Source: a virus | Direction: 5' to 3' (one strand) | IMG/VR virus record: IMGVR_UViG_3300034683_000041 | Coordinates: 54,396 to 118,395 of that record | Length of the DNA: 64,000 nucleotides | Shown: positions 17,749 to 54,560 of the stretch, piece by piece | How positions within the stretch are numbered: position 1 is the stretch's first letter | How the letters are laid out: every line of letters starts with the position of its first letter | Made by a program: the position numbers and the translations under genes | Notes under the pieces: generated by a model | Database searches by the model: none | Seen by the model: only the letters and a program-made list of their open reading frames with translations | What the model was told of the DNA's origin: nothing

Positions 17749-18567
17749 CTATCGATCATTCCCATGATCTACTACTTCCCGATCAGAACGAATCGAGAAA
17801 GCTCCACAAGTAAAAGTTTCACCTTCAGGACAATGTCCCAATTGGACACACTTAGGTCCAGCATTAGCGAAGATGACAGGATAATAGCGTTTTGCTATAG
17901 ACAGCATCTGACGAGCCACATCACGGATTTCCCATTGGGCACGAGTGCAACATCTTTCTGCAAAAAAGTGCATAAGAGCTCTCAAGTTCATCGTTGTAGT
18001 GATACTTGAAGCAGCAGCTTGAGGGGTAATGTAACGGGAGTCTTCAGCTTTTACGTCATTGTTGATAAAAAACCTATAAGTTTCCTCAACATGTTCCATA
18101 AGCGAAACAAACCGTTCGTACACTTCAGGATTCTCATGATTCATTATACTGGAAGGAACGATTGTAGCGATATGATGGAACTTAACATATCGCTGACTTT
18201 GCTGCGAATATGAAGCTAACCTGTGTCTCACCAGTTGATGAGTCATGGCACGAGATACATTCTGTATACTGAATGTCATAGTGACATGCTCTATAGGAGA
18301 CTGATGACTACTAGATTGCATCTTCAAAAGAAACTTCTGTGCAGCTTCATACGCATCAGCAGTTCGTGCATCAAGTTCTAGCTTACTAAGACTTGCAGCA
18401 TCAAGGTCATTAGTAAGTTTCAAGATGTCCCGGATAGAAGTATCTTCGGAGTAACATTGTCGATATCCTAAGAACACTTTAAGAAGGTTAAGCCGAGATT
18501 GGATAAGAGCATATTCGGGACAAATTGTTTCTTCAAAATACTCTACGTTTGCTTTAACTGGGTACAT
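17749..18567 (-). CDS. thyX: Flavin-dependent thymidylate synthase ThyX, 272 aa
   Basis: Makes dTMP from dUMP using FAD, NADPH and methylene-tetrahydrofolate, for phage DNA synthesis. The ThyX signature RHRxxSxxxxSxRY is exact at residues 114-127 (RHRLASYSQQSQRY). Other family elements are EDSRYITPQAA and FFAERCCTRAQWEIRDVA, which contribute to nucleotide binding. The C-terminal Cys-rich end (CVQLGHCPEGETFTCG) is typical of some longer ThyX proteins. The best Shine-Dalgarno upstream (AAGGAG, 18608-18603) serves a six-codon ORF that stops seven bases before the thyX ATG, so translational coupling is possible. Confidence 0.95.
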   Translation of the reverse strand: MYPVKANVEYFEETICPEYALIQSRLNLLKVFLGYRQCYSEDTSIRDILKLTNDLDAASLSKLELDARTADAYEAAQKFLLKMQSSSHQSPIEHVTMTFSIQNVSRAMTHQLVRHRLASYSQQSQRYVKFHHIATIVPSSIMNHENPEVYERFVSLMEHVEETYRFFINNDVKAEDSRYITPQAAASSITTTMNLRALMHFFAERCCTRAQWEIRDVARQMLSIAKRYYPVIFANAGPKCVQLGHCPEGETFTCGAFSIRSDREVVDHGNDR

Positions 18568-18574
18568 GTCACAT

Positions 18575-18595
18575 TTACCTGTACAGATTGATCAT
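18575..18595 (-). CDS. Possible six-codon leader peptide ahead of thyX
   Basis: ATG at 18595 with AAGGAG seven bases upstream; it encodes MINLYR and stops at 18575, just before thyX. Seen directly; a role in coupling thyX translation is inference. Confidence 0.3.
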   Translation of the reverse strand: MINLYR

Positions 18596-18780
18596 CTAAC
18601 ATCTCCTTATACCAGGATGGTTATCAACCCCATGTTGACATGGGATGTTCCATATACGTTAAAAGTTACATCCTCCATTCGTTATTCAGATCTACTCATG
18701 AAGAGTAGTCTGATACATAACATATACATGGCACCAGATGGTACCGTAACGTTGATCGTTGTGTGAGGTTCTTGTTCCAT

Positions 18781-18813
18781 ACGTTCTCTACTTACCTTAC
18801 GAGTAGAGAACGT
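18781..18813. repeat. Hairpin 1 of the cluster
   Basis: ACGTTCTCTAC (18781-18791) pairs with GTAGAGAACGT (18803-18813). Confidence 0.7.
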
Positions 18814-18848
18814 AAGTTCTACTACTAGTGGAAATTCAGTTCACTCTA

Positions 18849-18880
18849 CGCAACTATCCCCATAGGGGAGGATAGTTGCG
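18849..18880. repeat. Hairpin 2 of the cluster
   Basis: CGCAACTATCC (18849-18859) pairs with GGATAGTTGCG (18870-18880). Confidence 0.7.
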
Positions 18881-18927
18881 TCCATATCGTTCTCTACCCC
18901 CTATGGGGGAGGATACGGAGTCTAGCA

Positions 18928-18959
18928 CATGTGTGTGTCAAGTGTAGGACACACACATG
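18928..18959. repeat. Hairpin 4 of the cluster
   Basis: CATGTGTGTGTC (18928-18939) pairs with GACACACACATG (18948-18959). Confidence 0.7.
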
Positions 18960-18968
18960 CTTCTCGTT

Positions 18969-18986
18969 CTTGTCTATCAAGACAAG
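18969..18986. repeat. Hairpin 5 of the cluster
   Basis: CTTGTCT pairs with AGACAAG around a four-base loop. Confidence 0.6.
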
Positions 18987-19050
18987 ATGCGTAGAGTCTC
19001 GTTCACTCTTCTCTACTTACCTGTATGTATGTGTTGTACTCACATCTCAC

Positions 19051-19084
19051 GTATAGATACACTTCTCTCTCAGTGTATCTATAC
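19051..19084. repeat. Hairpin 6 of the cluster
   Basis: GTATAGATACAC (19051-19062) pairs with GTGTATCTATAC (19073-19084). Confidence 0.7.
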
Positions 19085-19162
19085 TCTACTTATACTTATT
19101 TATATACATACATAACCCCAGCCCTGCCTCACGGGGGTGAGATCTAGTCATTTTATAATTAC

Positions 19163-19182
19163 AGTGGTAATTTTTTACCACT
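19163..19182. repeat. AT-region hairpin with T loop
   Basis: AGTGGTAA (19163-19170) pairs with TTACCACT (19175-19182); the TTACCACT half recurs near 19196. It could act as a terminator because a short T stretch follows. Confidence 0.5.
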
Positions 19183-19298
19183 TTTAGACTTATAAATTAC
19201 CACTATTTAAATATAATATTTATATATACCAATCTTTTGGTATATGTTGATTATTTCCTTCGAATTCAATACTATGCAATTGATCCCGGAGGTACTAA

Positions 19299-20327
19299 AT
19301 GGATTACCAAAGTAAAATACAACAACTTAGATCCGTGTCTCCTACAGTAGACGAATATATCTCCAAAGGAGGATATTTAGTAGGAGTAGAAGATCCTGAA
19401 AGTGTCACAGATAGAGAAGTTCTTTTGTCGTGCTATCTTCTTCTTATAAATGAACTTCGTCAGATCGGAGTGAACTTCATTGGGGAGTTGGATGAGATAT
19501 TGTCCGATTTCTGGACAGCTGAAGGTCTACTGCAGTTGAGACAAGTTCTTGACCACGAATATTTATCTTCTCAGTTCAGTAATGACCAAGACCTCAAGTT
19601 AAACTTGGACGCATACATCAATGACTCGTATGTCCCTGAAATAGAAAAACTGGAACGAGTCCTTGTTGAAGTTTTAAAAGAAAAGATCATTTCTCCCAAA
19701 TATCAACAATTGTTTCAGGTGTATGGGCACTTTACTACGAATACGATATTTGATGATTATATCAATTATCTCTTAGAGAGTGCTGAGATTAAATTCGATG
19801 TGACTGCTACTGTAGAAGAACAGGCTGAGCTTATTAAGATAGTTCAGCAAAGTAGAGAGTTCTTTAAAGCCGCTATGAGCTTTTTGATCAAAGTCCGTCC
19901 TGATCTTGATAAAGAAAAGATACTGCACAGCGTACTTGATTATGATCTTGATAAGCTTCAGGTAGACGTACTTGATCAGATGGTATTTGCTATGCTGCGA
20001 GCTAAAGACGCAACTGATGCGTTGTCTGTCAAGATACGAGATGAGATATTGTTAAATCACCATCAAACTGCACGACATCACATCGAGTATTATGAGTATA
20101 GAAACACTCCTCCTGATCAGTATGACTTGATACAACTACTTGGACATTTTGTAGAACCTGGATCTACAAAAGAAGAATTTACTAAAGAAGTCGAAGTTCT
20201 TCTAAATCATCCCATAGTTCGTAAAGAAGATCATGGATATATACACAGATTGAGTGCTGCTCTGATAGAGATCTATGATGATGCGAACTTCCACATCCTT
20301 CAGAACAAATCGGTCAATGGGAAATAA
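19299..20327 (+). CDS. Hypothetical protein directly upstream of the RNAP fragment, 342 aa
   Basis: The ATG at 19299 has GGAGGT upstream and follows a strongly AT-rich stretch. The protein is acidic and helical, with no recognised motif, signal or membrane segment. It ends four bases before the preferred start of the RNAP beta'-like gene, so the two are probably translated together and may work together. An RNAP accessory subunit is a possibility that I cannot support from the sequence alone. Confidence 0.65.
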   Translation: MDYQSKIQQLRSVSPTVDEYISKGGYLVGVEDPESVTDREVLLSCYLLLINELRQIGVNFIGELDEILSDFWTAEGLLQLRQVLDHEYLSSQFSNDQDLKLNLDAYINDSYVPEIEKLERVLVEVLKEKIISPKYQQLFQVYGHFTTNTIFDDYINYLLESAEIKFDVTATVEEQAELIKIVQQSREFFKAAMSFLIKVRPDLDKEKILHSVLDYDLDKLQVDVLDQMVFAMLRAKDATDALSVKIRDEILLNHHQTARHHIEYYEYRNTPPDQYDLIQLLGHFVEPGSTKEEFTKEVEVLLNHPIVRKEDHGYIHRLSAALIEIYDDANFHILQNKSVNGK

Positions 20328-20331
20328 TCAC

Positions 20332-21705
20332 ATGCAGAACGAAAATATCATCCGCTGGTTGACTGACCCTATGCGTCGAGCTTCAATATGTACAAGAAGA
20401 GCACTTCTTTTGCTTGTGTCTTCTGTAGAAGTTGAACGTATACCTGATTTTGAAGAAGAACCAACTAGAGATCAAATACTTATCCGATCTGTGGACAGTG
20501 CAGTAGAACACAAACTTAAAACTTCTACTCAGTACGTACTGCAACGAGACACTAAGCATGTGTATGCGTTGAACTACCTACATGGACGCCAAGAGATGCA
20601 ATACATTTGTCTTGGTCCAGTAGGAGCAGCGCCTCTTCATATCTACGAAAAATTCATGTTAAAATCTGGCATGATAGAGAATTATGATGGTCCCCCTATA
20701 GAGACCACGTATGGTAGATACATCTCCAATTATCTCTTATTGGCAAATCCGTTCGGTTCGATGTTTCCGTATATCAATGATGTTTTCAAATTCAGCAACA
20801 TAGAGAATAATGCTGCTAAATTGGCTCTACAAGGAAAGCTTACTACTAATGAACTTTCCAGATATATGGATAATGCATTTTTCATGTCGATGTTAGCAGA
20901 GATCTGTGTACCGATATTTTCTCAAAGAGCATTGACTCCAAACCCAGAGATAGCTAAACGAAAAGCTGAGCTTCTTAAAAAGTACGAAGATGAGCTTAAA
21001 ACTGGGGATACCGCCATCGCAGTCAAAATAGAAGACGAACTCATCGAGATGGATAAACAGTACCTTAAAGGAGATCCTTCAGATGGGTTTTATTCTTCTG
21101 CAGGTAAGAAATATAACGTACACAGAAAATCACAATATCTTGCATTAGGACTTGTTGAAAAATTCCAACAAGAACGAGGTCAGTATACGTTCCTTGAAAC
21201 TGCACTGATAGATGGATGGAAACCTGAAGAGTTCGCTGACATCTGTTCTAACGCTCGACAAGGGAGTTATCGTCGAGGTATAGAAACAGAACAAGGTGGA
21301 GTACAAACAAAATATCTGTTAAGAACTCTTCAGAATCTCGAATTGACTGAAGAAGACTGCGGATCTAAAACTACATATACCGTTCTATTGACTAAAGAAA
21401 ACATCGAGGATCACATTGGATACTATGTAACCTCTGGCCCAAAGAGCAATGTCTATCTCGACGATACGAATAAATCTGAGTTCATTGGATCTACTGTCCA
21501 GCTCAGAACTCCTATGGGATGTAAAACTAAAAACGGATATTGCTATCGCTGCACTGGGCAGATATACAAAACTCTAGGAGTTAAAGAGGTTGGTCCTCGT
21601 GGACTGGAAATCGGTGCAGCATTCTTGACAGCTTCATTGAAAGCCATGCACGGTATAAAACTGTCCAGTATGGACATAAGCGACATCGACAATTATACTT
21701 TATAA
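20332..21705 (+). CDS. RNA polymerase beta'-subunit-like protein (C-terminal segment), 457 aa
   Basis: Fragment of a multisubunit RNA polymerase largest subunit, as in phiKZ-type phages that transcribe their own genes. The C-terminal third follows bacterial beta': RRGIETEQGGVQTKYLLRTL corresponds to the segment after the trigger loop, and LTEEDCGS to VTEDDCGT. CKTKNGYCYRC (Cys397, Cys404, Cys407) with Cys343 recreates the C...CX6CX2C zinc site. IGAAFLTASLKAMHG aligns with the [21 protein letters not shown] region. The NADFDGD magnesium-binding loop is not in this piece. Start at 20332 preferred (GGGA upstream); 20317 and 20275 are alternatives that overlap the previous gene. Confidence 0.75.
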   Translation: MQNENIIRWLTDPMRRASICTRRALLLLVSSVEVERIPDFEEEPTRDQILIRSVDSAVEHKLKTSTQYVLQRDTKHVYALNYLHGRQEMQYICLGPVGAAPLHIYEKFMLKSGMIENYDGPPIETTYGRYISNYLLLANPFGSMFPYINDVFKFSNIENNAAKLALQGKLTTNELSRYMDNAFFMSMLAEICVPIFSQRALTPNPEIAKRKAELLKKYEDELKTGDTAIAVKIEDELIEMDKQYLKGDPSDGFYSSAGKKYNVHRKSQYLALGLVEKFQQERGQYTFLETALIDGWKPEEFADICSNARQGSYRRGIETEQGGVQTKYLLRTLQNLELTEEDCGSKTTYTVLLTKENIEDHIGYYVTSGPKSNVYLDDTNKSEFIGSTVQLRTPMGCKTKNGYCYRCTGQIYKTLGVKEVGPRGLEIGAAFLTASLKAMHGIKLSSMDISDIDNYTL

Positions 21706-31022: not shown

Positions 31023-31697
31023 ATGAATGCCAAACGTAAAAAAGTTCAAGAATATATTCTTCAAACGATAGCTAAGATGGATCCTACTGGACCTAACGTA
31101 GAACGATACAAGAACATGTTTGCAGAAATGTCAGATCAAGAATTTGACAAATATATGAAGATGTTAAAAGAAGGGACAGTCAAACTTACAGTGTATGCTC
31201 CCAATATGAAAAACTATCTTAAGGTAGAAAACTTATTCAAAGCTGCAGAGTTTGTAAATGCCAAATTGTTCCATCGTATTCTGAGAACAGATCATACTAC
31301 TGGATTGCAGTATTGGAGTAATGAGAAGTATCTGGTAGTTACTCTTCCTATAAGAAGAGCTAGACAATTTTTGATGCACAAGATCTCTGTTGCGGAAAGT
31401 GATCAAAAGATCGATGCATTGACAGGACAGGTAACTAAACCAGACAAAGCTTCCGCAATATCCTTCGTGGAAGCACAGTTACTTGGAGCACAAGGATTAG
31501 AGAAAACTTTAGAAGAGTTTTTAAAAGTTCGTGGTGGAGATGTTCGAGCATTTGGGACATATAAACAACAATTGGAAGAAACCGGAGCTTCTCAGATGGC
31601 AGGACTTGATCCTACTACAGTACCTAGAAGTGCCGTAGTGTTTTCCAATATATTGCGATGCATGTACTACGACAACAATCTAGTTGAGGGGATGTAA
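31023..31697 (+). CDS. RNA polymerase beta-subunit C-terminal fragment-like protein, 224 aa
   Basis: The second half resembles the very C-terminal part of bacterial RNAP beta. LPIRRARQFLMHKISVAES fits the 'KLNHLVDDKMHARSTG' region. SFVEAQLLGAQGLEKTLEEF then RGGDVRAFGTYKQQLEETG fits '[41 protein letters not shown]'. The first 80 residues are helical and unassigned. The catalytic Lys motifs of beta are not here, so beta must be split into further pieces. SD CAGGAGAAAG precedes the ATG. Confidence 0.6.
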   Translation: MNAKRKKVQEYILQTIAKMDPTGPNVERYKNMFAEMSDQEFDKYMKMLKEGTVKLTVYAPNMKNYLKVENLFKAAEFVNAKLFHRILRTDHTTGLQYWSNEKYLVVTLPIRRARQFLMHKISVAESDQKIDALTGQVTKPDKASAISFVEAQLLGAQGLEKTLEEFLKVRGGDVRAFGTYKQQLEETGASQMAGLDPTTVPRSAVVFSNILRCMYYDNNLVEGM

Positions 31698-53867: not shown

Positions 53868-54560
53868 GTGACTACGGGACACAAAATTATTGTTACTGAC
53901 GACACTATTCGTCAAATTGTCAAGTCGGAAATCAACCAATACGGCTACGAAGCCGACCTTAACCACATCGACGTCAGTCAAGTGACTGACATGTCGTATC
54001 TGTTTGCATTCGTCCACTTTTGTGGAAACATCTCCAAGTGGGATGTAAGTAACGTGGTAGATATGTATGGGATGTTCGAGAACTCTCGGTTCAACGGAGA
54101 CATATCCCAATGGGATGTAAGTAACGTTAAAAACATGGGTGGTATGTTCTGTAAGGCCGACTTCAACCGAAACATTTCCAAATGGAATGTGGGGAAGGTT
54201 GAGAATATGGCGTTTATGTTCCAAGCATCTGAATTCGACAGAGACATATCACAATGGAATGTAAGTAATGTTAAAGATATGTCCGGCATGTTTCTCATGT
54301 CGGCTTTCAATGGCGATATTTCGAAGTGGGACGTAAGTAACGTAGAGAATATGGCGTTTATGTTCCGAAAATCGGATTTCGACGGAGACATATCGACTTG
54401 GAACGTAAGTAACGTGGTAGATATGTATGGGATGTTTTCGCGTTCTGAGTTTGAAGGAGATCTCTCCAGCTGGAATGTAGGTCTCGATACAAATACAAAT
54501 CTGATGTTCCAGAAATCACCCATGGAACAACATCCTCCGTTGTGGAGTAAACGAAACTAG
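53868..54560 (+). CDS. DUF285 (BspA-like) leucine-rich-type repeat protein, 230 aa
   Basis: GTG start after TTAAGGAGAATCATC. The protein is built from about seven 24-residue repeats with the core 'F.G(D/N)IS.W(D/N)VSNV..M..MF', the DUF285 repeat seen in bacterial surface and mycoplasma proteins. There is no signal peptide, so the protein is probably cytoplasmic and a binding scaffold. The promoter motif and short monocistronic unit suggest early expression. Repeats have diverged at the protein level but share long identical DNA stretches, implying recent duplication. Function in phages is unknown. Confidence 0.8.
   Translation: MTTGHKIIVTDDTIRQIVKSEINQYGYEADLNHIDVSQVTDMSYLFAFVHFCGNISKWDVSNVVDMYGMFENSRFNGDISQWDVSNVKNMGGMFCKADFNRNISKWNVGKVENMAFMFQASEFDRDISQWNVSNVKDMSGMFLMSAFNGDISKWDVSNVENMAFMFRKSDFDGDISTWNVSNVVDMYGMFSRSEFEGDLSSWNVGLDTNTNLMFQKSPMEQHPPLWSKRN
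53961..54518 (+). repeat. 72-base tandem repeats encoding DUF285 units
   Basis: About seven 72-base units. Units at 54045-54076 and 54405-54436 are identical over 32 bases, exactly 360 bases (five units) apart. Confidence 0.75.

Follow-up and report, generated by a model that had tools for sequence, protein, structure and literature searches.

The gene-free gap and its phage

What fills the longest gene-free gap of a 118-kb virus record, at a point where the genes on either side are read away from each other? We addressed this question in a window of 64 000 nucleotides, corresponding to positions 54396–118395 of the 118,395-base record. The proteins encoded, including RNA polymerase pieces, a tail sheath and a DNA polymerase, placed the phage with the phiKZ-like jumbo phages, which have multi-subunit RNA polymerases, and judged from these sequences it is a new lineage of that group. 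RNA polymerase subunit pieces were located at 20275–21705 and 31023–31697 of the window, and one more, 1508 aa long, was located elsewhere in the record (L003). For the 12–26 kb stretch of the window, no nucleotide relatives were found in the phage collection searched. The gap lies at a divergent switch, with a minus-strand gene on its left and plus-strand genes on its right:

17749..18567, minus strand: thyX, FAD-dependent thymidylate synthase (phrog_85, E 1.6e-44)
18568..19298, no strand: gene-free divergent gap of 731 bp, the longest in the 118-kb record
19299..20327, plus strand: gene syntenic with phiKZ gp79
20332..21705, plus strand: phiKZ gp80-like RNA polymerase subunit fragment

A sequence-only reading had described an array of different hairpins in a gene-free switch region, and the gene-free state was upheld: no ORF crosses the array, the ORF at 18566–18766 carries no coding signal and does not match a small gene at the same locus of a relative (L024), and hidden coding was rejected. 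The other divergent gaps of the record are 13–304 bases long, so that the array occupies ~400 extra bases in this gap. On the minus strand just upstream of thyX, a six-codon ORF, ATGATCAATCTGTACAGGTAA, follows AAGGAG at ~18586–18606 and possibly encodes a leader peptide.

A hairpin array far denser than chance

About ten different, nearly perfect hairpins crowd the gap, six of which are perfect and lie within 18780–19182:

18686..18713: hairpin, 11 bp, one bulged base
18780..18814: perfect hairpin, 13 bp, 9-nt loop
18817..18833, plus strand: weak hairpin, 7 bp including one G-U pair
18848..18881: perfect hairpin, 12 bp, 10-nt loop, CCCCATAGGGG in the loop region
18888..18917: imperfect hairpin around CCCCCTATGGGGG
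18928..18959: perfect hairpin, 12 bp, 8-nt loop
18968..18987: perfect hairpin, 8 bp, 4-nt loop
19022–19033 with 19101–19112, plus strand: predicted 12-bp helix, two G-U pairs, enclosing the 19051 hairpin
19051..19084: perfect hairpin, 13 bp, 8-nt loop TCTCTCTC
19163–19182: perfect AT-rich hairpin, 8 bp, 4-nt loop
19222–19247: weaker AT-rich hairpin, 11 bp

The hairpins at 18848–18881 and 18888–18917 have cores that are reverse complements of each other, and the enclosing 19022/19101 helix is borderline, as a helix of at least 12 bp arises in 9 of 300 linker shuffles. The array was confirmed, and its density lies far above what chance would give. When these 403 nt were put through 1000 dinucleotide shuffles, hairpins of at least 8 bp occurred 0.06 times on average (mean 0.063, maximum 2), against six observed, and hairpins of at least 10 bp had a mean of 0.005, against four observed, all of which have at least 12 bp. 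The at least six near-perfect stems at short spacing that had been read from the letters were thus borne out; their length was not, since the perfect stems measure 8–13 bp rather than 7–12 bp. When perfect-stem length was summed over 450 nt, the array took the top rank (score 66) among the 1.70 Mb compared, which came from nine phiKZ-like phages, the runner-up (score 56) being coding, and four long stems within 300 nt were found nowhere else in the record. The fold of 18770–19150 reached z scores of −9.7 on the plus strand and −8.2 on the minus strand.

We tentatively favour the possibility that the core at 18780–19150, which separates two divergent transcription units, acts as an untranslated, structured RNA peculiar to this lineage. 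The hairpins of the core would fold independently, protecting or presenting short single-stranded linkers, and as the stems would need only to be stems, their sequences could drift. The fold z scores of −8 to −10 and the highest perfect-stem density in 1.70 Mb argue for such an RNA, and the stems being unlike in sequence suggests that structure is needed rather than a fixed-sequence protein site. We infer transcription of the core, the strand used and selection acting on the folded RNA. The stems are, on the other hand, pure Watson-Crick and fold almost equally well on both strands, which would be expected of DNA-level dyads too and therefore counts against the RNA reading.

Linkers, repeats and the AT-rich block

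An alternative reading is an origin of replication or another cis-acting DNA site, in which the dyads would extrude or bind an initiator and an adjacent AT-rich block would melt; acting at the DNA level, such a site would make the two strands equivalent. An AT-rich stretch before the 19299 gene had been pointed out and is indeed present:

19151..19260: 81% A+T, more than any other 110 nt of the window; contains the hairpins at 19163–19182 and 19222–19247

This block adjoins the array and provides the AT-rich unwinding stretch of an origin, the stems are perfect and symmetric, and the gap is the longest gene-free one of the record and lies at a divergent switch. A precedent is lactococcal phage c2, in which a non-coding stretch separating divergent operons contains the origin. 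The base composition lent this role no support: GC skew at fourfold sites follows the gene strand on both sides of the gap, and a replication-type switch was not found. The suggestion of an origin in the sequence-only reading was accordingly matched in its AT-rich stretch but not in its skew. Iterons did not reach significance in the linkers taken alone, and the stem sequences are all different, unlike the sites of one initiator. On balance we regard an origin or other DNA site as somewhat unlikely. A limited literature search found no origin that had been mapped in this group of phages, and the array, if it were one, would supply what is missing.

The word CTCTAC occurs in five copies on the plus strand, as opposed to two on the minus strand, a count matched in 6 of 1000 shuffles, and this strand bias favours the RNA reading. 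Within the linkers alone, no repeated word was significant (hexamers, 303 of 1000 shuffles). The earlier claim that the spacers resemble each other therefore failed: outside the stems it does not reach significance, and the motif CGTTCTCTAC at 18782 sits within the first stem, outside any spacer. This also counts against the RNA reading. For a protein-binding RNA sponge of the CsrB/RsmZ type, as had been suggested in the sequence-only reading, a single short motif would be expected to recur in loops or linkers; CTCTAC is in excess over the array as a whole though no word is in the linkers alone, and the loops of the array differ from one another, so that a sponge may still be considered. That the stems differ in sequence and do not form a repeat array was confirmed, and REP/BIME or CRISPR-type arrays were rejected, as no repeat family beyond 2–3 short copies was seen and a tandem-repeat search gave no match.

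Promoters and gene-end hairpins

The early promoter motif of this phage (GGA/AAC-TATATTAC...TTTGA) has 14 plus-strand sites, mostly 28–92 nt before genes (23731, 24192, 30552, 33136, 45841 and 53820 in the window; others in L002, L003 and L004). The gap does not contain this motif (GGATATATTAC). TATG is the phiKZ late promoter element (PMC7598289), and the best late-type promoter or start candidate in the gap is a weak one:

19273..19276, plus strand: TATG, 26 nt before the gp79-syntenic gene

This site ranks 55th by score among 593 TATG sites, and of 50 upstream regions, 28 contain TATG, as against 19 when the opposite strand is read. Because the core ends to the left of this candidate, it would fall outside the gp79 leader, a weak indication that neither of the predicted transcripts on its two sides includes the core, as would suit an origin. 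Against the RNA reading, no promoter was found for the core, the best late-type site being to its right.

The array might alternatively represent stacked terminators, an insulator, or a relic in which gene-end hairpins were left or multiplied after the loss of small genes. We collected the gene-end hairpins of the phage, defined as those no more than 80 nt beyond a stop codon and with loops mostly of 4 nt, and obtained 44 perfect ones (window and L002–L004), which have stems of 11–18 bp and occur singly. TTTT followed within 10 nt downstream in 8 of the 44. None of the four long array hairpins is flanked by TTTT at a distance of up to 10 nt, whichever side is considered, so the reported absence of T-runs was correct as an observation, but it does not speak against terminators since the other 36 gene-end hairpins also lack them: the T-less perfect hairpin is the normal gene-end signal of this phage and nothing special to the array. 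The two kinds of hairpin share perfect, mostly T-less stems, yet those at gene ends are single and have mostly 4-nt loops, while the long array hairpins have loops of 8, 8, 9 and 10 nt against a gene-end median of 4 (p = 0.004). The longer loops indicate that the array is probably not just terminators. No real gene ends lie beside the array, which places it outside the gene-end class; its junction is divergent, with nothing obvious to terminate, and its four long stems in 300 nt are found once in the record.

The same locus in relatives

Relatives were located through alignments. The closest, L024/G001, has 43–46% protein identity and keeps the order thyX (minus strand), gp79-gp80 (plus strand) and GyrB. 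In L024, the interval contains two small plus-strand genes followed by hairpins of 14 (bulged), 12, 11, 6 and 6 bp, a stretch that folds strongly (z −8.0) and has no sequence similarity to the array of the window. An AT-rich hairpin stands just before gp79 in both. That this locus folds strongly in both phages, although the sequences are not alike, is consistent with the RNA reading. The L024 12- and 11-bp hairpins look like gene-end hairpins, however, so that this cluster seems partly terminator-like, and the small genes still present in front of gene-end hairpins of 11–14 bp are what a terminator relic would have started from. Taking both sides together, we judge stacked terminators or a relic unlikely. 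A GC-rich, strongly folding stretch of G001 (L050) was also inspected and set aside as coding.

In L168/L170 and L169 (39% identity), thyX is not adjacent and the locus has only gene-end hairpins, and more distant relatives have a compact gp78/gp79 junction without an array. DNA searches, single-protein searches and genome contigs gave no homologous array. As the array is absent or replaced at the same locus in these relatives, it is lineage-specific as far as seen. The first reading had named stems that are not conserved in related genomes as what would refute it, and this was partly the case: the stems are absent in L168/L169 and at the distant junctions, and an unrelated cluster takes their place in L024. 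That no homologous sequence was found in which stem covariation could be followed counts against the RNA reading, and absence from the same place in relatives counts against an origin.

Lineage specificity, together with stems that are perfect and all different, would also be produced by neutral palindrome growth in a constraint-free gap, with inverted repeats arising and becoming perfect through template switching. We consider this very unlikely, given that phage genomes are compact and that the other gaps of this phage have no such arrays.

Known RNA families and hairpin-dense gaps in other phages

The array is unusual and has no known family. No Rfam family, including ROOL and GOLLD, was matched at the gathering cut-off and nothing credible was found at E<=1 (one chance match, E 0.88). 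ROOL and GOLLD are large ornate structured RNAs known from phages; the array core, if transcribed, would be comparable as a structured phage RNA, but it is smaller and has no Rfam match. A tRNA or tmRNA in the array was rejected. In the relative G001, a tmRNA is accompanied by tRNA-Ser, -Arg, -Pro and -Gly (L046 102–1278). Hairpin promoters of the N4 type have stems of 5–7 bp and were set aside, the array stems being far longer; integron attC sites were set aside because cassettes are absent.

Hairpin-dense gene-free gaps were found in three further cases:

fnug 115967–116609 (L066 15967–16609): phiKZ/fnug gap between the 117 and 117.3 genes, convergent junction; 114665–115319 in phiKZ
L131 11388–11791: gap of Klebsiella phage Eowyn, 404 nt, z −6.4, convergent junction
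L119 9587–10108: gap of metagenomic phage G008, between a minus-strand and a plus-strand gene

The phiKZ/fnug gap carries ~11 different hairpins of at least 6 bp in 643 nt and folds with z −8 to −9. Like the array it is gene-free and hairpin-dense, but its junction is convergent, its stems are shorter and there is no sequence similarity. Among 11 phikzvirus copies, 31 columns were variable, mostly in loops, and no compensatory pair was seen at a divergence too low for one to be expected. As the phiKZ/fnug and Eowyn gaps are convergent, terminators are expected there, and these two gaps lend some support to the terminator reading. The G008 gap has six different hairpins of 7–10 bp in 210 nt (351 nt, fold z −6.1) and, as in the window, lies between minus- and plus-strand genes, although the flanking genes differ. 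Sequence similarity between the G008 gap and the array was marginal (1 of 100 shuffles in one of 14 comparisons) and is not claimed.

The phiKZ precedent favours the RNA reading. Abundant structured RNAs derived from untranslated regions were detected in phiKZ by Northern blot (PMC8545117), and these share with the array a phiKZ-like phage genome, structure, the untranslated state and a position beside operon ends. They differ in being ~100 and 180 nt long with two stem-loops each, in lying at different genes and in having been demonstrated as RNA (PMC8545117).

More broadly, one or a few of the gene-free gaps in each phiKZ-like jumbo phage might contain a hairpin array belonging to a fast-evolving class in which the string of stems is conserved and the sequence is not, serving as a noncoding RNA scaffold or a replication origin; we put this forward as a speculation with rather low probability. 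If functional, such arrays would escape sequence-based searches, since they would keep structure without sequence, and since phiKZ itself has a hairpin-dense gene-free gap, the idea could be tested in a phage that is grown in the laboratory.

Several minor observations were made alongside. The sequence GAAGTCATTCACTACGTTCATTCC is conserved in gene-free, mostly divergent gaps of Aeromonas jumbo phages (L150–L155) and in G008, and in G008 and AhC3_1 it is followed by a C-rich CCCCACCCCAACCCC-like box; as the Ferozepurvirus gaps have no array, the 24-mer common to G008 and the Aeromonas phages is a short core and not an array. In the record analysed here, a tRNA-Leu (taa) was found at L003 13214–13300, and diverged tandem repeats of 72/144 nt lie inside a coding region at 54090–54415 of the window. 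At 801–1000 of the window, where two genes converge, the local fold is very strong (z −11.3) and includes a hairpin of 12 bp at 882–916.
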